Source: Gammaproteobacteria bacterium AqS3
GTDB taxonomy: Bacteria; Pseudomonadota; Gammaproteobacteria; MEIF01; AqS3
DNA length: 64,000 nt
Direction: 5' to 3'
Assembly (NCBI GenBank): GCA_001750645.1
Contig: MEIF01000004.1
Span: 1-64,000, forward strand
The notes under the pieces were generated by a model. That model saw only the letters and a list, made by a program, of their open reading frames with translations, had not been told where the DNA came from and made no database searches. This document shows, in pieces, positions 48,878 to 63,347 of the stretch. How positions within the stretch are numbered: position 1 is the stretch's first letter; each line of letters starts with the position of its first letter. Position numbers and translations under genes: made by a program.

Positions 48878-49060
48878 GTCGCTTCCTTAAATCGAACGCC
48901 AACCAGCCTTGATTGATCAGGCGGGGCAGTGCTGCAAAAGGCGGATGAGCTGCGTAGTTTACGTCAGGCTGTGTAGATTTGTCTGTACTCAGGGCTGCTT
49001 TCTACTCACTCCCGAGGCTTTGAGACTATATTGCTCCGCTTGACGGCTTTCACACCTCTT

Positions 49061-49873
49061 ATGAACTGGCTGATCAAACGAGTAAAAAGCAAGAGCGCCG
49101 TGCTTGGAGTGATATTGGTGATACTGTTCGGTTTGCTGCGCGTGGGTTATATGTTTAAGGAGGAAATCCTGGGCCCCGAATTGGCTGATAAATGGTTTGG
49201 AAGCGGTGAATACGTCGGTGAATACCAGTATGGCGAGCGGCACGGTCAGGGAGTCCTAAAGTTTGAAAGCGGAACAATATATATCGGCGAGTTTTATAGG
49301 GGCAGTATTCAGGGGCAGGGGACGATGACTTTATCCAGCGGAAACGTATATTCTGGCGAATTCAGGGATGGGGAGATACATGGGCAGGGAACCTTGAAGT
49401 TTAAAAGCGGCTCCGAATATGTCGGCGAATTTTATGAAGGCCGCATTAATGGGCTGGGAGTTTTGGTCTTTTATGACGGGGACGAATATTTTGGTGAATT
49501 CAAAGAAGGCGGCTGGCACGGACAGGGAATTTTAACCCTGTCCGGCGGTCAAAAATATGAGGGTGAATTCAGAAAGAGCAAATTTCACGGACAGGGAGCT
49601 CGGAGCTATCCAAACGGCGACGAATACGTCGGTCAATTCAGTGATGGTAAATATCACGGGCAGGGGGTCAAAGCATTTGCCGATGGCGGAAAATATATCG
49701 GCGAATTTCGGCACGGCAGCATGAATGGTCAGGGAACCATGACATTGGCCAGCGGCGTCAAATACGTCGGTGAATTTAGATCCGGCAACTTTCACGGACA
49801 AGGCGCCATTACATATTCTGACGGAAGCGTGAAGAAGGGCACCTGGGTGAACGGCAAGTTTCAAGAGAAGTAG
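49061..49873 (+). CDS. Membrane-anchored MORN-repeat protein 1
   Basis: 270 residues. The start at 49061 is set by its paralogues, all of which begin MNW or MKLLNW. A basic N-terminus (KRVKSKS) leads into one transmembrane helix (about 12-31), a conserved linker (RVGYMFKEEILGPEL-DKWF pattern), and nine full MORN repeats of 23 residues (YVGEFxxGxxHGQGxxxxxxG) with a closing half repeat (KKGTWVNGKF). By the positive-inside rule the repeats face the periplasm. MORN arrays bind lipids or proteins; the partner is unknown. First of three genes in a row. Moderately AT-rich. Confidence 0.82.
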   Translation: MNWLIKRVKSKSAVLGVILVILFGLLRVGYMFKEEILGPELADKWFGSGEYVGEYQYGERHGQGVLKFESGTIYIGEFYRGSIQGQGTMTLSSGNVYSGEFRDGEIHGQGTLKFKSGSEYVGEFYEGRINGLGVLVFYDGDEYFGEFKEGGWHGQGILTLSGGQKYEGEFRKSKFHGQGARSYPNGDEYVGQFSDGKYHGQGVKAFADGGKYIGEFRHGSMNGQGTMTLASGVKYVGEFRSGNFHGQGAITYSDGSVKKGTWVNGKFQEK

Positions 49874-49881
49874 TTTCAACC

Positions 49882-51333
49882 ATGAACTGGATCATCAGGC
49901 TAGTCAAAAACAGGATGGCCGCACTTGGGCTGATATTCGCGGTGGCGGTTCTCAGCCTGCGCGTGGGTTATATGTTTAAGGAGGAAATCTTGCCCCCCGA
50001 ATTGGTCGATAAATGGTTCTTCGATCATGAATACATAGGCGAATACAGGGATGGAAAGTGGCATGGGTGGGGGACAATAAGGTTTCAAAGCGGAACGGAA
50101 TATGTCGGCGAATTTCACGAGGGCCTCTTTCATGGGCAGGGAACCATGAGCTTCTCCAGCGGAAGCGTATATTCTGGTGAATTTAAGGATGGCGATTGGG
50201 ATGGACAGGGAACCTTGGCTTTTTTCGATGGCGGCAAATATGTCGGTGGATTTAAGCATGGGGAATACCACGGGAGGGGAACCCGAACCTATGCAAGCGG
50301 CAGCGAATATGTCGGCGAATTTGAAAATGGCGAAGAGCATGGGCAGGGAACCTGGACCTTCAGCAGCGGATCTCAATATACCGGCGAGTTTAGAGATGGA
50401 AATTACAACGGACAGGGGGTATTCATCTATTTCAATGGCAGAAAATACGTCGGTGAATTTAAGGACGATGAATATCACGGGCAGGGGACCTTGACCCTTC
50501 CCGGCGGTGGCAAATACGTTGGTGAATTCAAGAACGATCAATATCATGGACAGGGAACTTTGCACCGCGCTGACGGCGGCAAATACGTCGGTGAATTTAG
50601 TGATGGTCAATTTCACGGGCAGGGAACTTTGGATTACCCTGATGGTGCCACATACACCGGCGGATTCAGGAACGGCAGATATCACGGCAAGGGAGTCAAA
50701 AAATACAACGACGGCGGAAAATATGAAGGCGAATTTCAGGATGGCAATAGGCATGGGCAGGGGACGTTGATCTTTCCCGATGGGAAAGATTTCTTCGGAG
50801 AATATGTCGGCGGATTCAAGAACAACAGATATGACGGGCAGGGAACGATTGTTTTTGCGCATGGCAAATACACGGGCGAATTCAAAGATGGCCACTGGCA
50901 TGGACAGGGCACTTTGACTGACCCCGATTTTGGCGAATATGTGGGCGGGTTTAGAAAAGGCAAATACCATGGGCAGGGCACGTTTGATTTTTCAAATCAC
51001 GATTGGTTTGATCGATACACAGGGCAATTCATCAACGGCTTTTGGCATGGGAGGGGAACGCTGACCTACAACAGCGGCAGCGAGTACGTCGGCGAATTCA
51101 GGTATGGAAAGTTTCACGGCGAGGGCGTTTACACCATCCAGGATGGTGGAAAGTACGTCGGCGGATTTCGCCGGGACGAGTACTACGGCCAGGGGACTTT
51201 TACCTACGTCGGCGGCGATGAATATGTCGGCGAATTCAGGGCTGGAAAATACCACGGCCAGGGCGTCAAGACCTATTCTGATGGAAGAGTGGAGGAGGGC
51301 ACCTGGATCTACGGCAAGTTTCAGGGGGAGTGA
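49882..51333 (+). CDS. Membrane-anchored MORN-repeat protein 2
   Basis: 483 residues, the longest of the four: N-terminal helix (about 10-30), the shared VGYMFKEEILPPELVDKWF linker, about 18 MORN repeats and a terminal half repeat (EEGTWIYGKFQGE). Two repeats near residues 295 and 370 carry insertions. The 8-bp spacer before it (TTTCAACC) is the same as that before protein 3, showing that the gene and its leader were duplicated together. Its last four repeats are almost identical in DNA to those of protein 3. Confidence 0.85.
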   Translation: MNWIIRLVKNRMAALGLIFAVAVLSLRVGYMFKEEILPPELVDKWFFDHEYIGEYRDGKWHGWGTIRFQSGTEYVGEFHEGLFHGQGTMSFSSGSVYSGEFKDGDWDGQGTLAFFDGGKYVGGFKHGEYHGRGTRTYASGSEYVGEFENGEEHGQGTWTFSSGSQYTGEFRDGNYNGQGVFIYFNGRKYVGEFKDDEYHGQGTLTLPGGGKYVGEFKNDQYHGQGTLHRADGGKYVGEFSDGQFHGQGTLDYPDGATYTGGFRNGRYHGKGVKKYNDGGKYEGEFQDGNRHGQGTLIFPDGKDFFGEYVGGFKNNRYDGQGTIVFAHGKYTGEFKDGHWHGQGTLTDPDFGEYVGGFRKGKYHGQGTFDFSNHDWFDRYTGQFINGFWHGRGTLTYNSGSEYVGEFRYGKFHGEGVYTIQDGGKYVGGFRRDEYYGQGTFTYVGGDEYVGEFRAGKYHGQGVKTYSDGRVEEGTWIYGKFQGE

Positions 51334-51341
51334 TTTCAACC

Positions 51342-52370
51342 ATGAACTGGATCGTCAAACTGGTCAAAAGCAGGATGACCACCTTTGGGTTGATATTCGC
51401 TGTGGCGGTTCTCAGCCTGCGTGTCGGCTATGAGTTCAAGGAGGGAATTCGGAGCCTTGAGTTGGTCGATAAATGGCTCTCAAACCATGAACACGTCGGC
51501 GAGTTTAAGCAGGGGGAATACAGCGGGCGGGGCGTGCGAGTCCACTCTGACGGCTCCGAATATGTCGGCGAATTTAAAGACGGCAAAGAGCATGGGCAGG
51601 GAACTTGGACATTCGGCAATGGTGCTCGATATACCGGCGAGTTGAGTGATGGCAAATACAGCGGACAGGGAACCATAACCTTTGCCGACGGCGGCAAATA
51701 CGTCGGCGGATTCAAGGACAATCAATACCACGGACGGGGAATTTTCTACTATGGCGACGGCAGGAAGTATGCCGGCGGATTCAAGGATGGTCGATATCAT
51801 GGACGGAGCATTTTGCACTACGCCAATGGCGCCTCATACATCGGTGAATTTAAGGACGGCAGACGTCACGGGCAGGGAGTAGAAACATACAGCGATGGCG
51901 GAAAATATGAAGGCGAATTTCAATATGGAAACAGGCATGGTCAGGGGAAACTGATCTTTCCAGATGGGGATGATTTCTTCGGAGAATATGTCGGCGGGTT
52001 CAGAAACGGTAAATATCATGGACAGGGGAAGGTTGTTTTTGCCGATAGCAAATACACGGGCGAATTCCAAGATGGTTACTGGCACGGGCAGGGGACTCTG
52101 ACCTACAACAGCGGCAGCGAGTATGTCGGTGAATTCAGGTATGGAAAGTTTCACGGCGAGGGGGTTTACACCATCCAAGATGGTGGAAAGTACGTCGGCA
52201 GATTTCTTCGCGGCAAGTACTACGGTCAGGGAACTTTAACCTACGCCAATGGCGATGAATATGTAGGCGAATTCGGGGATGGAACGCTCCACGGCAAAGG
52301 CGTCAAGACCTATTCTGATGGAAGAGTGGAGAAGGGCACTTGGGTATTTGGCGAGTTTCAGGGGGAGTGA
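51342..52370 (+). CDS. Membrane-anchored MORN-repeat protein 3
   Basis: 342 residues: the MNWIVKLVKSRM start, a transmembrane helix (about 12-30), a linker slightly changed from the others (YEFKEGIRSLELVDKW), about 12 MORN repeats and the terminal half repeat EKGTWVFGEFQGE. One repeat lacks the usual Gly (HGRSILHY). It lies eight bases after protein 2 and should be in the same transcript. Function unknown, as for its paralogues. Confidence 0.83.
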   Translation: MNWIVKLVKSRMTTFGLIFAVAVLSLRVGYEFKEGIRSLELVDKWLSNHEHVGEFKQGEYSGRGVRVHSDGSEYVGEFKDGKEHGQGTWTFGNGARYTGELSDGKYSGQGTITFADGGKYVGGFKDNQYHGRGIFYYGDGRKYAGGFKDGRYHGRSILHYANGASYIGEFKDGRRHGQGVETYSDGGKYEGEFQYGNRHGQGKLIFPDGDDFFGEYVGGFRNGKYHGQGKVVFADSKYTGEFQDGYWHGQGTLTYNSGSEYVGEFRYGKFHGEGVYTIQDGGKYVGRFLRGKYYGQGTLTYANGDEYVGEFGDGTLHGKGVKTYSDGRVEKGTWVFGEFQGE

Positions 52371-52419
52371 TTTTTTAGGGGCAGGGAATAGTGTAATCTG
52401 CGGTTCCCAGGTGCTTTGA

Positions 52420-53382
52420 TTATTTCATAGAGTTATATTTTTGCTCCAATAGGAACATGACATAATCCAGCTGCTCTGGCTTTTTCAAACTGATTTTGTA
52501 GGTATATCCCACGCCATCTTTGTTGTTGAAAGTCCTCGTGCCTTCTTTTGCCAAGCGTTTGGGATCATCAACGGTGAAATACCTTTTCGACTTTTCGCCA
52601 CTCTCTTTTATATTTCCTCTGTAAATCACGATGAAGATGTCAGATTTGCGAGGATTTATATGGCATATATGGGCCTTGCCGCGTTTCCAAGAGATGTACA
52701 CCTTGGTGGTTGAAAACGAAGTGTCTGGATATTCTTCCAAACGTTCCTTCAGCAAGTCCCAGAGCGGCTTCAGGCTCCCTCCAAATTTTTCGGTGTGGTC
52801 GTCTTCGGAAGGAACCTTCACCTGATCGGACACTTCTGACATCGCCGAATCGCTCTGAAAAGGCGACAGTTTTTCCATACTTTCATTGGAGTTTGATAGA
52901 TGCTGTTCCAATGCAATCAACCCATCTTCAAACTGTCTGATCTCATACAGCTCAAAGGGAAAGTCCTTGAAATTGACGCTGTTCTTCTGGAACTTATTGA
53001 ATGATTGGGATATGAATATCACGCGCGATGATTCCCAGTCGATTTCGCTCCGCTTTAGTTGCCTCCCCATTTTCTCGTTGTACTCGAGGATAAAGTCGGC
53101 CTTGTTCTCCAGCATTGCGGAGAGGTAGGAAAACCCTTGGTCGACTACCGATGAGTTACTGCCTTTCTTGTATTCCACGATCACAAATGACTTGCTCTCC
53201 AGGTCATAAGCCAAAGAATCCAAACGAAACTCACCGACGGCAAATCCAGAACTCACAAACTCCAACCCAAGCAGCGCATCCATGTTCTGCTCGACAAGCG
53301 ACTGGATGTTCTTCTTCAGCTTGAAGGAACCCTTCTCAATCGGCGTCAGTATTCCCTTGGCGTTCTTCTTAAACCACTGCAT
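52420..53382 (-). CDS. PD-(D/E)XK-fold protein with DUF5655-like C-terminus
   Basis: 320 residues. The N-terminal half has the nuclease-type core: Asp55 in FRLDSLAYD and Glu70-x-Lys72 in FVIVEYKKG, with a following helix (DQGFSYLSAM), the pattern of restriction-endonuclease-like folds. The C-terminal 105 residues (LWDLLKERLEEYPDT onward to QLDYVMFLLEQ) resemble DUF5655, often attached to such nucleases. The ATG at 53382 is chosen because GGGAGG lies about eight bases upstream and 44 upstream residues look non-coding. It sits between MORN genes, on the opposite strand. A stand-alone defence nuclease is the likeliest role (inference). Confidence 0.75.
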   Translation of the reverse strand: MQWFKKNAKGILTPIEKGSFKLKKNIQSLVEQNMDALLGLEFVSSGFAVGEFRLDSLAYDLESKSFVIVEYKKGSNSSVVDQGFSYLSAMLENKADFILEYNEKMGRQLKRSEIDWESSRVIFISQSFNKFQKNSVNFKDFPFELYEIRQFEDGLIALEQHLSNSNESMEKLSPFQSDSAMSEVSDQVKVPSEDDHTEKFGGSLKPLWDLLKERLEEYPDTSFSTTKVYISWKRGKAHICHINPRKSDIFIVIYRGNIKESGEKSKRYFTVDDPKRLAKEGTRTFNNKDGVGYTYKISLKKPEQLDYVMFLLEQKYNSMK

Positions 53383-53491
53383 GGATGGCCTCCCCAATAC
53401 CGTGAAAACGTGTGCTGTGATCGATCTTGCACCCTGAGCAGCACCGCCCCAACCGCTCGGCTTCCAAGCGGGCGGGCATTGCAAGCGGCGC

Positions 53492-53497
53492 ATTATA
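53492..53497 (-). promoter_or_regulatory. -10 element of the PD-(D/E)XK gene
   Basis: Minus-strand consensus TATAAT followed by GCGCC, about 110 bp before the start codon. The -35 region (TAAAAG) is poor. Confidence 0.45.
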
Positions 53498-53499
53498 TT

Positions 53500-53531
53500 G
53501 CCGCTGTTTGACATCTTTTAGCCGCTGTTTG
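53500..53531. repeat. 11-bp direct repeat GCCGCTGTTTG, 21-bp period
   Basis: Copies at 53500-53510 and 53521-53531, two helical turns apart, between the divergent PD-(D/E)XK and fourth MORN genes. The spacing suits a regulator binding two sites on one DNA face; this is inference. Confidence 0.45.
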
Positions 53532-53664
53532 GCCAGTCTGACCCCCGATTCACGTTCCGTAAACCACTGTTTTTGCGGTGCTTTTTGATGATGTGCTTCA
53601 GGGCGACCGTCTCAGCCGGGATGGTTGGGTCAATATTTCCGCCGATCCTCAGCGGCAAACCCTT

Positions 53665-54342
53665 ATGAAACTTTTGAACTGGATAGTGCGCTTCCTGCAA
53701 GACAGGACTGATGCATTTAAATTGGTGCTCGGCATTTTGATTGCAACCGTGGGCACGCTTGGTGCGATCCATTTATTAGAGGAGCACCTGATTGAGCGGT
53801 GGTACGAGGGCGGTGAATATCGCGGCCAGTACAAAGACGGAGAGAGACACGGGCACGGGGTTTTGCAGTTCCCCAAAGGCGCCAGATATTCCGGCAGCTT
53901 CCGTGATGGTCGCCCCGATGGCCAGGGGACTTTGATCCTCGAAAGCGGCTCAAAGTACGTCGGCAAATTCAAAGACGGCGAAATACACGGGAAAGGAACT
54001 TATAAGCTCAAGAACGGTGGACAATACATCGGTGAATTTAGAGATGGGGAGCTGCACGGCAGGGGAACCTTCATCTCCGGCGATGGCACCAAATACATCG
54101 GTGAATTCAGAGACAGCGACAAGCACGGGTGGGGAACATTCACCATCCCATCTGAGGCACAATATGTCGGCGAATTCAAGCGCGGAAGGATCTACGGCCA
54201 GGGCAGGCTCACCTTTTCCAGCGGCACCAGATATGTCGGCGGATTCAAGGATGGCGATTTTCATGGCGAAGGAACGCTCATACTCTTCGATGGAAGGGTG
54301 CAGAAGGGCACTTGGGTGGATGGAGAATATCAGGAGGAATAA
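53665..54342 (+). CDS. Membrane-anchored MORN-repeat protein 4
   Basis: 225 residues: MKLLNWIVRFLQDRTD start, a transmembrane helix (about 19-37), a linker (LEEHLIERWYEGGEY) and seven MORN repeats with the terminal half repeat QKGTWVDGEYQEE. It is the most diverged of the four and is separated from them by the minus-strand nuclease gene. The following membrane-protein gene starts six bases after its stop. ATG 53665 is chosen by alignment with the other family members. Confidence 0.8.
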   Translation: MKLLNWIVRFLQDRTDAFKLVLGILIATVGTLGAIHLLEEHLIERWYEGGEYRGQYKDGERHGHGVLQFPKGARYSGSFRDGRPDGQGTLILESGSKYVGKFKDGEIHGKGTYKLKNGGQYIGEFRDGELHGRGTFISGDGTKYIGEFRDSDKHGWGTFTIPSEAQYVGEFKRGRIYGQGRLTFSSGTRYVGGFKDGDFHGEGTLILFDGRVQKGTWVDGEYQEE

Positions 54343-54810: not shown

Positions 54811-57800
54811 CTAAGCAGCTATCAGATTCTCTGAAATTGCCTTCGCTTGTTGCAATACTAATATCACAGTCTCTCTTTGTTGATCATCCGGGTAGCTGTA
54901 TCTTCTCAGCAGTGCCCGGATCATTAGACGCATTTCTGCCATAACATTTTCCCGAACTGTCCAATCCACTGTATGCTTTTCGCGCAGTTTTTTCGCAATT
55001 TCACGCGCCAGCTCTACTAGAACCGCCTCTTCCATTAACTTTTGTGCGGATTGATTCTTAGCAATGGCGTCATAGAAGGCTTCTTCATCTGCATCTAAGT
55101 TATAGCTATTCCTAAGCTTCAGATCTTCTTGGAACTGCTTTGCTATAGCGATCATTTCTTCAATCACCTGGGCTGCTTCAATCACACGGTTGGCGTATCT
55201 ATTAAGTGTTTTTGAGAGCAGCTCACTGAACTTGTTTTGCATGACCATGTTGGTTTTGAATCTGCTTCTCACTTCATCTCTTATCAGTCGCCGCAACAAT
55301 TCAATCGCAAGATTCTTATGCGGCATATTCATGACCTCTCTGAGAAACTCATCTGAGAGTATGGAAATGTCTGGATTTTTTAGCCCTGCAAGTTTGAATA
55401 CATCTGCGACGCCTTCCCCCACTATGGCTTGGGAGAGCAGTCGTCTCAAGTGATGGTCAATATCGATCTCCTCATCTCCATCATCACTTCGGTCACCTTT
55501 GACCAAGGCGGCGCGAACTGCTTGGTGGAATGCTACTTTTCGGGACAATGCTAAAGCTTCATCCAATGTTCCGCAAAGTGCAAATGCCTTTGTCATTTGC
55601 AGGACGGCATCTGCATATCTTCGCTTGCCTTCATCTTGTTCAAGAATGCGGTCAAGGCATTCTGGGATTAACGCCAGTGCGCGGGTTTCAAATTGCTTCC
55701 AGTCCACTGGATGCAGAAGATCTCCTGCGACCTGGAGCTTTTCTTTAAGGATACGCAGCGCCTCATTGGAGTCAATGATGGGGCGGCCTTTGCCTCTTGC
55801 CGTGCTGTAAGTTGACAATGCTTCTCGGAGTTGAGGAGCGATGCCGATATAGTCGACTATTAGCCCTCCCAGCTTATTGTGAAAAACGCGGTTGACCCGG
55901 GCGATTGCTTGTGCAAGGTTGGCCCCGTGCATTGGTTTGTCGACATACATCGTGGCCAGGCAGGGGACATCAAAACCAGTCAGCCACATATCTCGCACGA
56001 TGACGATCTTGAGTTCATCATTCGAGTCTTTGAAGCGCTTTTCGAGATCCTTTTTTTGACCCTTATTGGAGTGATGTGGCTGTAAATGTGCTTCATCGGA
56101 AGCATCCGTAGTCATCACCACTTTGATCGCTCCCCCGGTGTGATCATCGGAGTGCCAATCCGGCTCCAATTCCACAATCTTTTCATATAGACGCACGCAG
56201 ATATCACGCGACATTGTGACGATCAAAGCCTTGCCGGGTTGAGTTTTGCTGCGATTTTTGTAGTGCTGTATCAGGTCTTCCGCAACTTCTTTTAGGCGTT
56301 CATCCGTGCCAACAACTGCTTCAAGAGCTGACCATTGTCTTTTGGCTTTTTCCTTTTCTCTCGGATTCGCCGATTCGCTGTCAAGGATGTCTTCGACTTC
56401 TTGGTCAACAACTGGTAATTCAGATTGAGCCAAGTCGATTTTGGCCAGTCTGGATTCGTAGTAAATGGGCACCGTCGCACCATCATCAACTGCCTGTTGG
56501 ATGTCATAGATGGACACATAGTTGCCGAAAACCGCCTGTGTATCGCGATCATTTTTCGAAATTGGAGTTCCTGTAAAGGCCAGGAAAGTTGCGTTGGGCA
56601 GTCCGTCCCTCAGTGATCTGGCAAGGCCGTATTTGAACTCGCCAGTCTCGCTGTCGAACTTGGCCTTGAAACCGTATTGGCTGCGATGGGCTTCATCCGC
56701 TATAACCACGATATTGTGGCGATCAGTTAGGACGGGGAATGTGTCCTCTTCAGGTTCCAGGCCAAATTTCTGAATGGTGGTGAAGATGATGCCGCCGGAG
56801 GGGCGGTTCATTAGATACTCCCGCAGTTCAGCTCGAGAATGTGCCTGCTTTGGCGTTTCGCTCAGCAATTCACCGGAATTGGCGAAGACACTGAATAGCT
56901 GGCCGTCCAGTTCTTGTCGGTCCGTAACTATCACAACAGTGGGGTTTTTCAGGCGAGGCTCTGCAATCAGACGGCCTGCCAGACATGCCATCTCAATGCT
57001 TTTCCCCGCACCTTGCGTATGCCACACAACACCGCCTTTTTTGTTGCCTTCTTGGGATGATGCGGACACAACACTCTCAACGGCTGACTGCACGGCATGG
57101 AACTGGTGGTAGCCGGCAATTTTTTTGTGGATGGCTCCCTCGTCTTCAAAGATGCAAAAGTAGCGCAGGTAGTTGAGGAAAATTTCTTTGTCGAACAGCC
57201 CTTTAACCAGGGTTTCAAGCTCTCGGTGCTTTCCAAGCGGATCGATCTCCTCGCCATCAATAGTGCGCCAGCGCATGAAGCGCTGCCTCTCTGCACTTAA
57301 CGAGCCCAGACGAGCGTGGATGCCGTCAGAGATGACCAGGCAGGTGTTGTAGTTAAAAAGATCGGGAATGTCATTTTTGTAGGTTTGCAGCTGGTTGTAT
57401 GCCTTTTTAATACAGGCCTGTTCATCTGCCGCATTTTTGAGCTCAATAACGGACAGCGGCAGGCCATTCAGAAATACCAGCACATCGGGACGTCGCGGTT
57501 GTTTGTGCCCCTCAAGGGTGAACTGATTGACAACCAGCCAGTCGTTGTTTTCAGGGTTGTCAAAATCAATGATTTTGAGTTGCTTTCCGAGTTCCTGATT
57601 GTCTTCGTGATAGGTCACTTGGAGACCCCTGGTTAGCCACGAATGGATCTGACGGTTGCACGACATCAAGGCGGGAATATTTGGGTTGAGAATTTGGGAC
57701 AGTGCAGAATTGATCGCTGTTAGGGGAATTTCGGGATTGAGTTGGGTAAGGGCAGAGAGCAAACGATCATGCAGAGTGACGGTTCGGTAGTCGGATCGTT

Positions 57801-57912
57801 CAGGAGCTTTACCGTCGTGCGCAATGTCAAATCCGCACTGATACTCATAGCCGAGTTCTTTAAAGAACTCGATGCATTGCTGTTCAACTTGGTCTTCAGT
57901 TATCAGTGCCAT
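54811..57912 (-). CDS. hsdR: Type I restriction enzyme subunit R
   Basis: 1033 residues; ATP-dependent translocase and nuclease of a type I restriction-modification complex. The N-terminal PD-(D/E)XK nuclease is visible as RRPDVLVFLNGLPLSVIELKNA (about 160-180). The helicase motor has WHTQGAGKS (motif I), DEAHRSQ (motif II) and FTGTPI (motif III). The C-terminal 300 residues are helical and bind the M2S core. Its ATG shares one base with the hsdS1 TAA, so it is the last gene of the minus-strand operon. It is the only hsdR seen for two hsdM/hsdS modules. Confidence 0.95.
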   Translation of the reverse strand: MALITEDQVEQQCIEFFKELGYEYQCGFDIAHDGKAPERSDYRTVTLHDRLLSALTQLNPEIPLTAINSALSQILNPNIPALMSCNRQIHSWLTRGLQVTYHEDNQELGKQLKIIDFDNPENNDWLVVNQFTLEGHKQPRRPDVLVFLNGLPLSVIELKNAADEQACIKKAYNQLQTYKNDIPDLFNYNTCLVISDGIHARLGSLSAERQRFMRWRTIDGEEIDPLGKHRELETLVKGLFDKEIFLNYLRYFCIFEDEGAIHKKIAGYHQFHAVQSAVESVVSASSQEGNKKGGVVWHTQGAGKSIEMACLAGRLIAEPRLKNPTVVIVTDRQELDGQLFSVFANSGELLSETPKQAHSRAELREYLMNRPSGGIIFTTIQKFGLEPEEDTFPVLTDRHNIVVIADEAHRSQYGFKAKFDSETGEFKYGLARSLRDGLPNATFLAFTGTPISKNDRDTQAVFGNYVSIYDIQQAVDDGATVPIYYESRLAKIDLAQSELPVVDQEVEDILDSESANPREKEKAKRQWSALEAVVGTDERLKEVAEDLIQHYKNRSKTQPGKALIVTMSRDICVRLYEKIVELEPDWHSDDHTGGAIKVVMTTDASDEAHLQPHHSNKGQKKDLEKRFKDSNDELKIVIVRDMWLTGFDVPCLATMYVDKPMHGANLAQAIARVNRVFHNKLGGLIVDYIGIAPQLREALSTYSTARGKGRPIIDSNEALRILKEKLQVAGDLLHPVDWKQFETRALALIPECLDRILEQDEGKRRYADAVLQMTKAFALCGTLDEALALSRKVAFHQAVRAALVKGDRSDDGDEEIDIDHHLRRLLSQAIVGEGVADVFKLAGLKNPDISILSDEFLREVMNMPHKNLAIELLRRLIRDEVRSRFKTNMVMQNKFSELLSKTLNRYANRVIEAAQVIEEMIAIAKQFQEDLKLRNSYNLDADEEAFYDAIAKNQSAQKLMEEAVLVELAREIAKKLREKHTVDWTVRENVMAEMRLMIRALLRRYSYPDDQQRETVILVLQQAKAISENLIAA

Positions 57913-58547
57913 TAGATGCCAGCCTCTTCTAAGAGTGTTTCTGCATCCGGAATTCGGAGTTCGCCTGAGATGAGTTTGGGGAGCAGGGTGTTTCGCAACT
58001 TTACGAGTGCAGAGCTCTCTCTATGGCTTATTTCAATTCTTTCGAATAGAGGCTTTAAGAGGATGTGAAATATTTGAAATAAGTCATCAGGAGGAAGGAT
58101 ACAGCGCGTATTGAGAATGCTTTGGTTGTCAACTTTGGGATAGGCCGTGCCATCTGCCAGTCGGGACAGCCTGTCTATGTTTGTGTCAGAGCAGACACAT
58201 AAATAGACAAATATTGCATAAATCTCTTGCTTTGGAGTGAGGACTGCAAAACCAGTGCTGCCCGTGAGGTACTCTCGCTGTATATACCCGAATGACTTAT
58301 TGCCCGGGCGTACAGTCCCAACTATCGTGTCGTTTATTGAAAGAATTCTTCGCGCACTGCTTGGGGCATCTTTCCATTGGTATAAATCAGTCCCTAAAAT
58401 GTTATTTTGTTTGATATTGCCCAGATTAAGAAAGTTAACTTCATTGGGATGGTTGTTCTTACGCCAACTGCTTTTGTTCAGTGTGGTTAACTCCTTGATA
58501 AAAGATAATTTCCAACCCTTTGGAATCCTGCCGATTTCTGAGTCCAC
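57912..58547 (-). pseudogene. hsdS: hsdS1, 3' part (second recognition domain), frameshifted or phase-off
   Basis: 211 codons from an internal GTG. SEIGRIPKGWKL marks the conserved start of the second target-recognition domain, and the end is KLRNTLLPKLISGELRIPDAETLLEEAG, the usual HsdS C-terminus. The same frame continues upstream, without stop, to the poly-G/C tract at 58636-58643, where it would join the 5' part if one base were added. So this is the second half of a single hsdS rather than an independent gene, although translation from the GTG cannot be excluded. It overlaps hsdR by one base. Confidence 0.8.
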
Positions 58548-58612
58548 AAACTCAGCGGGAAAGAGAACATCAATTTCATGCGGAAGCTTTGCAGATAATG
58601 CTTTCTTGTTAT

Positions 58613-59290
58613 TTATATCGTCTGGCAGTTTGGAAGGGGGGGGAAGGATGGGTTTTTAGCTTTCGCATACACAGGATCGAAGTCAACAAACCATGATTTG
58701 AATATTGCTTTGGCAATCTCTTCAAGGACTGTGATCTTTTTTTGATTGTGCTCGATTTTGTCGTCTAATGTGCCGAGGATATGAGCGATGGCTTTTTGAA
58801 GCTTAGAACTAGGAATTATTACTTCTATGGATTTTAGAACGCTCTTACTTATTTCTAAGAATGTGGAGCCGGAGGCATAAGATTTAATAGTTGGAGTTAT
58901 ATGCTTTAAAAGATAGTAAAAAAATTCCGGCTCATTTCCTTCTTGCAGGATTAAATTTTTGAAACCTTGATTTGTGGCAACCTCATTTTTCGCAATGGCA
59001 ATATAGCCAATAGGAGCTCTAGATGTAAATAAAACCGTATTCGGTGGTAATAGTTTTGCGGAACTTGAGTCAAGACCCTTCTGAGTAATAGAGCGTTCTC
59101 CATAACTGATATATCTTTCGTTATGAGAAGATAGATCTCTGGGAGTGATCCAGGATATTTCACCGTTGTAATTTTCAGAATTTTTGGTTGATGGTGTTCC
59201 TCCTGAAATTATTGAGGCAATATCTCCTAACCTAACTTTATGCCACGTATCTGACAGATGCCGCGTGGATTTGGGTATTGATGTCTTCAT
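58613..59290 (-). pseudogene. hsdS: hsdS1, 5' part (first recognition domain), ends at poly-C tract
   Basis: 225 codons: VRLGDIASIISGGTPS opens the first target-recognition domain, and the central conserved helix follows (AHILGTLDDKIEHNQKKI, then AIFKSWFVDFDPVYAKA). Seven codons after the run of eight C (minus strand) the frame hits TAA. With nine C the frame reads on through KLPDDINNKK into the 3' part, giving a 459-residue HsdS. The truncated form could still act as a half-subunit. The ATG at 59290 overlaps the stop of the HEPN gene (ATGA). Confidence 0.82.
58636..58643. repeat. G8/C8 homopolymer tract inside hsdS1
   Basis: Eight G on the plus strand (eight C in the coding strand) at the end of the conserved central helix region of HsdS. 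It sits exactly at the frame break, so slipped-strand changes would switch the gene between half-length and full-length forms. A sequencing error in the homopolymer would look the same. Confidence 0.8.
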
Positions 59291-59691
59291 TTTTCAGTGC
59301 TTATTGTTTTAAAAAATTGTTTTACACCACCAATGAATTCAGGAATTACACTTATTATGTTCTCTGTCAATTCTTTATTAAAATGACCGGGCAGGTATTT
59401 CCTAAGTTCTCTATATAGCAAACACTGTTCAGAATCAGAATGAAGCATTCTTAATTCATCTGCCCTTATAAATAATACCCTTGTGTCGGATACAGTCTCG
59501 CCGTATTCTTTTTCGATATAGGTTCGGAGCATCTTTTTAGTCGTTTCATAGCTGAGCTCAAACATCTTTATTAGCACCATGTCGGTACCAGTAGCATATA
59601 TGTCACTGCTTGCAGCCGAGCCATCCTGCCATTCTTTCCAGTAACGCTCTGGATTGGAATGGGCGCGTTGCATATTAATAAGATCTTTCAT
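59287..59691 (-). CDS. HEPN (HI0074-like) protein, paralogue without AMPylation Tyr
   Basis: 134 residues from ATG 59691, which overlaps the hsdM1 TGA (ATGA). It aligns with the HepT-like protein of the second module across its length: LIxxFExxYETxxKxLR near residues 40-56, then IPEFI near the C-terminus. The HEPN RNase motif is altered to Arg97-x5-His103, followed by Phe-Asn instead of x-Tyr, so the tyrosine that MntA-type enzymes AMPylate is missing. No nucleotidyltransferase is encoded next to it. It may be a regulatory or degenerate HEPN, or may use the enzyme fused to HsdS2. It is translationally coupled on both sides. Confidence 0.7.
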   Translation of the reverse strand: MKDLINMQRAHSNPERYWKEWQDGSAASSDIYATGTDMVLIKMFELSYETTKKMLRTYIEKEYGETVSDTRVLFIRADELRMLHSDSEQCLLYRELRKYLPGHFNKELTENIISVIPEFIGGVKQFFKTISTEK

Positions 59692-61232
59692 TGCTTGATC
59701 CACTCAAGGTTTTTGGCTATGTGAGCATCTAGGCTCTTTTCTTTCTCTTGCAGGTCTTGCAATTCTTGGGTTAGCCGATCAATTTTCAAGTTATAAGGTT
59801 CATCATCTTCTTGTTCAGGGGCGGTTCCAACGTACCTTCCCGGAGTCAGCACATATTCGTGTTTTGTTATCTCTTCTAAGGCGGCTGACCTGCAGAAGCC
59901 TGGAATATCTTTGTAATTCTCGCCAGTCTTCCATGCCCGAACGGTTTCGCTGATCTTGTCTCTATCCTCTTTGCTAAAGACCCGAAGAGTTCGTGTTTGC
60001 ATGGTTCCAAGATTTCGAGCATCAATGAACAAGGTTTCATTGCATCTGTCCCGACCATTTTTGGTTTTGTCATTGGTAAGAAACCAAAGGCATACTGGAA
60101 TTTGAGTGTTTAGAAACAATTGTCCCGGCAATGCAACCATTGCCTCAACCACATCATCACGAATCATTGCTTTGCGTATTTTGTTCTCACCGCTGGTGGC
60201 TGAGCTCATGGAGCCATTGGCCAAAAATACTCCAGCCTGACCTCCCGGTCGCAGTTTCCAAAGGATATGTTGCAGCCAGGCGTAGTTGGCATTGCCGATT
60301 GGCGGTCTGCCGAACCGCCAGCGAGGGTCACTCTCATATTTTTCACCGCCCCAATCTGAAATGTTGAAAGGGGGATTCGCGAGGATGTAGTCAAACTTGA
60401 GGTCGGGGAAATGATCGCGAGCAAAAGTGTCGGCTGGCTCTTTGCCCAAGTCGGTCGAGAAACCCCGAATTGCCATATTCATCGCGGCCAACCGCCAAGT
60501 TGTCGGATTGCTCTCCTGTCCATAAATGGAGATATCGTTTGTACGACCGCCATATGCTTTGATGAGTTCTTCGCTCTGGACAAACATCCCGCCCGATCCG
60601 CAACAGGGGTCATATACGCGCCCGGATGTGGGCGAAAGAATCGCCACAAGAATTTTGACCACATCTGAAGGAGTGTAAAACTGTCCGCCGTTTTGACCTT
60701 CTGCTGCTGCGAATTCTCCGAGAAAATACTCATAGACCTCACCTAGCAGATCGCCCTCATTGTAGTCCTTATTGAATCCGATAGTTGAGATAAGGTCAAT
60801 CAACTCCCCTAAGATCCTGGGATCCAACATCGTGCGTCCAAAGCGTTTGTCCAATTTCCCGCGCAAGGGAGGATTCTCTTGTTCAATCGTGGTTAAAGCA
60901 GCATCAACCAGGGCGCCGATATTCGGCTGTTTGGCTTTTTGTTTCAGTGTTTCCCAGCGCGCATCCTGCGGAACCCAGAACACATTATCCTTTGTGTAGT
61001 AGTCTCGCTCTTCAAGTTCTTTTTCGCATTCGGAAGGGTCTTTGCTGATGAAATAGTTCGATGACGGTTCTGAAACCATATCCCACACCCTGCCTCTCTG
61101 CCTTGCAAAGGTATCGGAGATGTATTTGAGAAAGATCAGGCCGAGAACAATGTGCTTGTACTCGGCGGCATCCATCTGCCCGCGCAGCTTGTCAGCTGCC
61201 TTCCAAAGCTTTCGTTTGAAGTCGGAGGTCAT
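59688..61232 (-). CDS. hsdM: Type I DNA methyltransferase subunit M (module 1)
   Basis: 514 residues; N6-adenine methyltransferase subunit. The start ATG at 61232 (MTSDFKRKLWKAADKLRG) follows GGGAG by about eight bases and gives the family N-terminus (KYISDTF). The SAM-binding motif I is DPCCGSGGMFVQSEEL, and the catalytic motif IV is NPPFNISDW. The QFYTPSDVVKILV stretch and NYAWLQHILWKLRPGGQAG are also typical. The C-terminus is helical and contacts HsdS. A 130-bp gap separates it from the MNT-HsdS gene upstream, so a separate internal promoter is possible, though none is obvious. Confidence 0.95.
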   Translation of the reverse strand: MTSDFKRKLWKAADKLRGQMDAAEYKHIVLGLIFLKYISDTFARQRGRVWDMVSEPSSNYFISKDPSECEKELEERDYYTKDNVFWVPQDARWETLKQKAKQPNIGALVDAALTTIEQENPPLRGKLDKRFGRTMLDPRILGELIDLISTIGFNKDYNEGDLLGEVYEYFLGEFAAAEGQNGGQFYTPSDVVKILVAILSPTSGRVYDPCCGSGGMFVQSEELIKAYGGRTNDISIYGQESNPTTWRLAAMNMAIRGFSTDLGKEPADTFARDHFPDLKFDYILANPPFNISDWGGEKYESDPRWRFGRPPIGNANYAWLQHILWKLRPGGQAGVFLANGSMSSATSGENKIRKAMIRDDVVEAMVALPGQLFLNTQIPVCLWFLTNDKTKNGRDRCNETLFIDARNLGTMQTRTLRVFSKEDRDKISETVRAWKTGENYKDIPGFCRSAALEEITKHEYVLTPGRYVGTAPEQEDDEPYNLKIDRLTQELQDLQEKEKSLDAHIAKNLEWIKQ

Positions 61233-61362: not shown

Positions 61363-62937
61363 TTATTCGATATCAGCCTTGCCGAGAAATCGTTCGGCAT
61401 CTGAAACATCCAGCTCGCCCGAGATCAGCTTGGGCTGCACGGTGTCCCGGAGTTGTTGCAGCACGCGGGATTCCTGCTGAAGAACAATCTGTCGATCCAC
61501 CAGAGGCTGGAATATCTCCCCCAGTTTCTCAAGGGTCGGCAAATCCGGCACCGCGCATACGGCCCGCTGCAGTTCTCTTTTATCCACGTGTCTGATTACA
61601 GTTGATTTGATTTCAGACAGAAACAGCAGCTCAGGAATAAAGTGCTCGACCCAGCCCGCCACAAACCACAGCGGAACGCCCCTGCCTTCAACCTTGAAAA
61701 CAGACCGGCCCAATGCGCCCTTGTCACCTGCCCAGTATTTTGCAAAAACTGAACCCGTCCATGAAAACAGAAAATCTCCATCACCAACGATGAGATCAGC
61801 GGGAGCATTCGATGTATAAAAATCATCATCCGTGTGCCCCTTGAGCAGCTGTGTGGTGGTGATTAAGGGGATTCTGTCCTTGTCCTCCAAGTGGAGATGT
61901 TTGTGACGGCCAGTTCCCTTGATGAAGGAGCCTATTTCATCTAGCGATTTGCACTGCCATCCTTTCGGAATTTTTCCAATTTCCGAGCCTGTCCGCTCGT
62001 CGGGCAACAGCTTCTTGAGTTCTGGAGCAAGACCGTATAGCGGGGAATCTGTTTCAGCATAGACGGGGTTAAAATCAACGAACCAGGATTTGAAAACAAC
62101 TTTGAAAGTTTCCTTCAAAATTTTCACTTTCTTATGATTATGATTGGTCTTATTTTCTAGTATATCGAGAGTACTAATAATTATTTTCTGTTTTTCAAGG
62201 GAAGGAAACTTTACAGGAATATCTAGGAATGCACTGGGTTCTAGCAAATTTACTGTTGACCAAACAGCCGTTGATAGCCAATAGCTTAGATACTGATCTA
62301 GATAATAGAAGAGAAATTTGGTTTGGACTTTATTTTCTGATTTAGATGTTATGCAATAGGCTGTTTGGTAAAGATTAAAATCACCTGAAACATACTGAAG
62401 AGAAACATCTTTATAATTACTTGAAACGATGATCACGGGACAGTCAAATAAATACTTGTTGCTTTTTCTGGTCGTGCCTAATTGAGGATATACATTACTT
62501 TTCCCGGCATTTTTTCTGGTGGGACTTTCGGCGGCAACATTCGCTATATCTCCCAATTTCACCTCGCACCACTCACTTGAAAGGGGACTGAGTAGCAACT
62601 TCTTTTGCAAGACATAGTGTGCTTTTTGTATGTTTGGTTTGAAGTGTTCAGGAATGTCATTCCACACTAATACATCCACCTCAAAAGGAAGATTGCTTTC
62701 TTCAAATGCTTCGCGTAGATTGTTTACCTCGCGTTGTTGAATTTTATCAGTAAAGACTGCTAGGTCTAGGTCTGAGGTGGGGCGGGACTGGAAAGTTATT
62801 CGTGATCCAAAAGCCCAAACTAGGGTGTTGGGCAGGTGAATGTTCAATAATTGTTTGACGAGCTGATAGTGCCCCGTTGTTAAATCAATATTGTCGAATT
62901 CTTTCACCTCCACTGACTTGGCCGCTAGCTTTCCCAC
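61363..62937 (-). CDS. hsdS: MntA-like nucleotidyltransferase fused to HsdS specificity subunit
   Basis: 524 residues. Residues about 20-115 are a minimal nucleotidyltransferase (MNT): Gly44-Ser45 with Asp56 and Asp58 (exact GSx10DxD) and a third Asp at 88 in FEVDVLV. From about 118 onward it is a full HsdS: first recognition domain (CEVKLGDIANVAAES), central helix with VVFKSWFVDFNPVYAE, second domain from SEIGKIPKGWQ, and the end TVQPKLISGELDVSDAERFL. The frame is open throughout with no stop between the parts. MntA-type enzymes AMPylate and silence the HEPN toxin HepT; the HEPN gene is directly upstream and overlaps this one by 13 bases. The start (GTG 62937) is uncertain; a GTG about 30 bases downstream has a better ribosome site. 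Fusion of these functions is unusual. Confidence 0.88.
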   Translation of the reverse strand: MGKLAAKSVEVKEFDNIDLTTGHYQLVKQLLNIHLPNTLVWAFGSRITFQSRPTSDLDLAVFTDKIQQREVNNLREAFEESNLPFEVDVLVWNDIPEHFKPNIQKAHYVLQKKLLLSPLSSEWCEVKLGDIANVAAESPTRKNAGKSNVYPQLGTTRKSNKYLFDCPVIIVSSNYKDVSLQYVSGDFNLYQTAYCITSKSENKVQTKFLFYYLDQYLSYWLSTAVWSTVNLLEPSAFLDIPVKFPSLEKQKIIISTLDILENKTNHNHKKVKILKETFKVVFKSWFVDFNPVYAETDSPLYGLAPELKKLLPDERTGSEIGKIPKGWQCKSLDEIGSFIKGTGRHKHLHLEDKDRIPLITTTQLLKGHTDDDFYTSNAPADLIVGDGDFLFSWTGSVFAKYWAGDKGALGRSVFKVEGRGVPLWFVAGWVEHFIPELLFLSEIKSTVIRHVDKRELQRAVCAVPDLPTLEKLGEIFQPLVDRQIVLQQESRVLQQLRDTVQPKLISGELDVSDAERFLGKADIE

Positions 62938-63347
62938 TCTATACCGGTTACTGCTTGATACAGTTCTATCGCATCTGCGATAAATTTGGGAATCAGTTCT
63001 AATACGTATAGAAGTTTTTCCAGGCTGTAATCATGTGAGGTTGTGTTACGCGCATCAACATAATTGAGCCAGCGATCAAGATTTTTGCTTAGCAGTCCAT
63101 TGTCACCAGCTGTTCTGAACATAAGTTTGGCTCCGTTGCCCGGGTCGGTTACTCCTAGATCTTCCGTAAGGTGGCGTCTTAGAGCCTTTAATATTGTTTC
63201 ATAGCATACTTCAAAGGACTGGATCAAGCCCATCTGGGCAAGTTCTTCAAGGTCATTGCTATCAGCGAGATGCTTGCCACCTTTGTAGGCTTCATGATAG
63301 CGTTGAAGGTTTTTCAGTGAATTTTCAAAGTCAGAGTAGTCAATCAT
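62925..63347 (-). CDS. HepT-like HEPN toxin (HI0074 family)
   Basis: 140 residues, all-helical. Motif Arg100-x4-His105-x-Tyr107 (in DARNTTSHDYS) is the Rx4HxY signature of HepT-type HEPN RNases, including the tyrosine modified by MntA. LIQSFEVCYETILKALRRHL is the conserved core helix. HEPN proteins with this motif cut RNA when freed from the antitoxin. The ATG at 63347 overlaps the upstream hsdM2 stop by eight bases, and the stop overlaps the MNT-HsdS frame. It is thus inserted between the M and S genes of a restriction operon. Confidence 0.85.
   Translation of the reverse strand: MIDYSDFENSLKNLQRYHEAYKGGKHLADSNDLEELAQMGLIQSFEVCYETILKALRRHLTEDLGVTDPGNGAKLMFRTAGDNGLLSKNLDRWLNYVDARNTTSHDYSLEKLLYVLELIPKFIADAIELYQAVTGIEWES

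Follow-up and report, generated by a model that had tools for sequence, protein, structure and literature searches.

A type I restriction-modification operon in the 64,000-nucleotide stretch of Gammaproteobacteria bacterium AqS3 analysed here (the window) contains an hsdS gene that is broken at a run of eight C's, and its anatomy, read from the sequence, makes it likely that this gene is a slipped-strand specificity switch of the NgoAV kind and part of a combinatorial restriction-modification (RM) repertoire. Similar runs were found in about 20 other RM genes of the same genome, mostly out of frame, so that much of the arsenal is apparently subject to random switching.

Results

The tract, C8 on the minus strand (G8 on the plus strand), occupies positions 58636..58643 in the inter-TRD linker of hsdS and lies at the frame break. 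The first half of the gene is an ORF of 225 aa with an ATG start that encodes TRD1 and a conserved helix (59290..58613, minus strand), and the second half is an open frame of 247 codons that encodes TRD2 and the C-terminal conserved region (58655..57912, minus strand); both are Pfam Methylase_S domains, with E values of 2e-36 and 3.5e-5, respectively. Neither half has an internal stop, 226 and 247 codons being open, and the two frames overlap around the tract, the upstream one meeting a stop 20 nt past it and the downstream one opening 12 nt ahead of it; the earliest ATG, GTG or TTG of the second half is a GTG at 58547. A sequence-only reading of this DNA had placed the two parts of hsdS in different frames at an eight-base tract and had predicted that one added C would restore a subunit of 459 residues, and both statements hold, as the C8 run sits at the break and the computed read-through with one more C is a single subunit of 459 residues. 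The gene has a GC content of 41% in a window of 60.5%, and a first-order model predicts only about 0.01 C/G runs of at least 8 within it, before any coincidence with a frame break is required. Residues 12-197 of the half-subunit can be aligned with either half of 1yf2, an S subunit of known structure, helix included (E 2e-60); the truncated HsdS retains a whole TRD and the conserved helix and is therefore equipped with the parts for self-pairing.

The full-length form on which the sequence-only reading depends does occur in relatives, since the hsdS homologues with both halves encode a single continuous ORF at 21 loci; the 93 nearest genomes compared share only the class with the host, none of them being of the same genus. 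In the aligned full-length relatives the linker has the form FVDFDPVRAKAEG..GLPPEISDLFP, and the window hsdS contains about 18 tract-bearing residues in its linker that are absent from them; its tract is thus placed in an added segment that is tolerant, outside the conserved sequence. Short half-HsdS ORFs in two other genomes (G108 and G055) lack such a run and were set aside as evidence, and a scan of viral contigs returned distant HsdS relatives only. Elsewhere in the host genome, on contig C100 (L030 5284-6162), a remnant between hsdM and hsdS consists of an HsdS N-terminus, closely resembling that of the window hsdS, and an HsdM C-terminal fragment, which suggests that RM loci have recombined.

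The operon around the broken gene is otherwise intact and tightly overlapping, in the order hsdM, NTase_sub_bind, hsdS and hsdR, all on the minus strand. The hsdM gene (59688..61232, 514 aa, HsdM_N and N6_Mtase domains) overlaps the NTase_sub_bind ORF by 16 nt, the latter (59287..59703, HI0074-like, PF08780, E 1.5e-9) overlaps hsdS by 4 nt, and the start codon of hsdR (54811..57912, 1033 aa, HSDR_N, SWI2_SNF2 and T1RH-like_C domains) shares 1 nt with the hsdS stop in the sequence TAATG. The diagnostic domains of HsdR, HsdM and HsdS are thus found in one operon, which identifies it as type I restriction-modification, and HsdM shares 70-75% identity with proteins from Pseudidiomarina, SAR116, Sphingomonadales and a gammaproteobacterial MAG. 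The NTase_sub_bind ORF has no nucleotidyltransferase partner within this operon. In a second type I operon of the window (61363-63347), where no C/G tract was found, HsdS is N-terminally fused to a Polbeta nucleotidyltransferase domain and the fusion gene overlaps an NTase_sub_bind/HepT-like ORF, an arrangement that resembles an MNT-HEPN pair incorporated in the specificity subunit. Genes for tandem MORN-repeat-like proteins (GEF/GQGT repeats) adjoin the RM island at 49031-54342.

We surveyed C/G runs of at least 8 in the single draft assembly of 234 contigs (3.16 Mb) and read all 73 tracts found in their context; 24 of them lie in restriction, methyltransferase or nuclease genes. Three of the five hsdS genes carry such a tract (C168; C100:26831; C163:1439), as do about 12 of the 24 N6_N4_Mtase genes, against 0.8 expected (Poisson ~1e-10). 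Ten of the latter are at C163:5276 and 6005, C1:37166, 39824 and 41751 (three consecutive mod-like genes, each with a tract), C133:4131, C144:14393, C56:6813, C166:18727 and C184:3761, and two more are fused to HNH (C162:13696; C167:19795). The remaining tracts are in two type ISP genes (C167:7020; C111:66416 and 70037), two Eco57I-family genes (C165:15972; C100:11758), a relative of the EcoRI methylase (C111:79781), a relative of MmeI (C143:140211), a GmrSD gene (C111:22749) and an HNH gene (C181:6152). Altogether, about 22 RM genes of the genome bear a tract, covering types I, II/IIG, III and ISP and a GmrSD-type gene; besides the window hsdS, about 20 RM or methyltransferase genes are spread over contigs C1, C56, C100, C111, C133, C143, C144, C162, C163, C165-C167 and C184 of the host assembly G000 (loci L030, L031, L033, L035, L046, L048, L049, L208, L209, L211, L212, L220 and L225-L229).

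The phase of the RM tracts could be assessed in 23 cases, with 18 at frame breaks, including three at the 5' end of the gene where the true start is uncertain (C162, the methyltransferase-HNH gene of C167, and C184), and five in frame. This distribution is compatible with one-third of the tracts being in frame (p 0.17), the share expected of random phases, and incompatible with 90% (2e-14). RM tract lengths span 8 to 11, the five in-frame tracts being of 8-9.

A genome-wide excess of C/G runs of at least 8 was considered and dropped, as 73 in 3.16 Mb falls within the range of class relatives, and the first-order expectation for a window of about 60% GC exceeds the count seen in it. Total tract density being unexceptional within the class, it is their placement alone that is informative. 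In control loci from other genomes of the class no C/G run of at least 8 was found in 414 kb, comprising hsdS loci (96 kb, about 2 expected), methyltransferase loci (102 kb, about 2 expected) and hsdS and mod homologues (216 kb, about 4 expected; all first-order), and 10 occur in the wider HsdM flanks, which amount to 912 kb from mixed phyla. Within the host genome, a strict frame-break criterion was met by 12 of the 73 C/G runs of at least 8, compared with 0/10 C/G7, 1/58 A/T7 and 0/7 A/T8+ runs.

The length of C/G tracts differs between near-identical sequences of this genome. Four adhesin-like paralogues with near-identical flanks have poly-C runs of 11 (L040 175), 16 (L041 92), 11 (L042 28) and 9 (L047 2883), a comparison of assembled sequences which shows that C/G tracts change length in this lineage. 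Tracts are present, too, close to the 5' ends of genes for other giant LapA/fn3-like repeat proteins.

Discussion

The data are best accounted for by slippage, although three other explanations of the broken hsdS have to be considered. The tract could in truth be in frame and hsdS an ordinary full-length gene, with the break a homopolymer miscall; miscalls of this kind do fall at homopolymers of 8 or more and the assembly is a draft, but we regard this as improbable, given that five RM tracts of 8-9 are already in frame and that C/G7, A/T7 and A/T8+ runs of the same assembly are almost never at breaks, on which ground general homopolymer error was rejected as the main cause. Moreover, error leaves unexplained why the tracts are concentrated in RM genes, about half of the methyltransferase genes having one and the 414 kb of control loci none, and even if the C8 were miscalled the tract would stay a candidate for phase variation.

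Plain decay, by which hsdS and the other RM genes would be pseudogenes left by one-off frameshifts, agrees with most of the tract-bearing RM genes being out of frame; however, both hsdS halves are fully open over their whole length, hsdM and hsdR are intact, and the breaks lie within tens of bases of the tracts in gene after gene and are not scattered, so that decay appears quite unlikely. Finally, programmed or transcriptional slippage can arise where a homopolymer spans a frame junction, and the C8 would then yield both the short and the long HsdS while the DNA sequence stayed the same. This is very unlikely in view of the variation in tract length, from 8 to 11 in RM genes and from 9 to 16 in the near-identical adhesin paralogues, and of the five RM tracts that are already in frame.

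We therefore favour homopolymer phase variation of hsdS, as the sequence-only reading had put forward together with the idea that the truncated form may itself pair, and the match of its anatomy to NgoAV lends that proposal support. In the mechanism that we propose, slippage at the C8 in the inter-TRD linker would toggle hsdS between a full-length subunit with two TRDs, made at an in-frame tract length, and the half-subunit of 225 aa with TRD1 and one helix that the assembled C8 would give. If NgoAV is a guide, two half-subunits most likely pair, giving an enzyme that would methylate a palindromic bipartite site, and the switch would then change specificity and not only turn it off. The second half of hsdS is probably silent in the truncated state, and translation of hsdR may drop when hsdS is truncated 0.7 kb upstream, since the two genes overlap at the TAATG. 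Since hsdS is one of about 22 RM genes with C/G tracts of at least 8, the organism probably runs a combinatorial phase-variable repertoire. That most of the restriction arsenal, these roughly 22 genes, is under independent poly-C/G switches, with hsdS switching specificity and a clone occupying very many states, is a broader claim towards which we lean with more reserve.

In NgoAV of Neisseria gonorrhoeae, HsdS is cut short at a polyG tract to 208 aa and in this form acts on GCAN8TGC; when the tract loses one G, hsdS1 and hsdS2 are fused and the site recognised becomes GCAN7STCA (PMC9577141; also PMC7394358). The window operon likewise has a G/C homopolymer where its two HsdS halves meet at a frame break, a first half of comparable kind (225 aa here, 208 aa there), a one-base change that fuses or separates the halves, and hsdM and hsdR, both intact here. 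Unlike NgoAV, the operon has an additional NTase_sub_bind ORF, its tract lies inside the extra linker residues, and the genome has many further tract-bearing RM genes; alternative specificity, dimerisation and length change are proposed features of this locus.

In Helicobacter pylori, homopolymers switch methyltransferases of type III, IIG and BcgI-like kinds, some specificities also changing (PMC3936762), and homopolymer tracts there frameshift several RM classes within one genome, as they do here, whereas the set described here adds type I hsdS, type ISP, a GmrSD gene and two methyltransferase-HNH fusions. Among REBASE entries, simple sequence repeats (SSRs) are present in 7.9% of the hsdS and in 17.4% of the type III mod genes (PMC7394358); the switch type of these phasevarions is the same, although here about half of the N6/N4 methyltransferase genes and three of five hsdS carry C/G tracts of at least 8. 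Slipped-strand switching of hsdS and mod is already established (PMC7394358; H. pylori, PMC3936762). The mechanism proposed for the hsdS locus is thus a known one in Neisseria and Helicobacter, and it is the breadth across one genome, as judged from one draft assembly, that appears unusual.

The best descriptions of phase-variable RM come from host-adapted pathogens, and a comparable environmental case was not found in the literature searched. The hsdS locus would be a close parallel to NgoAV outside Neisseria, but the genome-wide pattern, with around half of one genome's N6/N4 methyltransferases carrying a tract, outweighs any single locus and bears on the role of switching in population-level phage defence as well as in gene regulation. 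If the proposal is true, restriction and methylation states would be very numerous within a clonal population. The pattern is also a warning that gene callers will score many such tract-bearing systems as broken.

Tracts in promoter regions bear on the rate of switching. In five paralogous genes for secreted proteins, a C8 run separates TTGACA from a TACCTT-like element (L215 3064; L236 3003; L239 1274; L211 3028; L213 2981), an arrangement that resembles promoter-spacer phase variation. All five runs are exactly eight C's long although their flanks have diverged, so that a tract of this length may switch at a modest rate. The gap that precedes an ORF (L031 15469-17073), by eye a putative reverse transcriptase, holds a further C8 (L031 15182), which is possibly a transcriptional switch of a defence gene.
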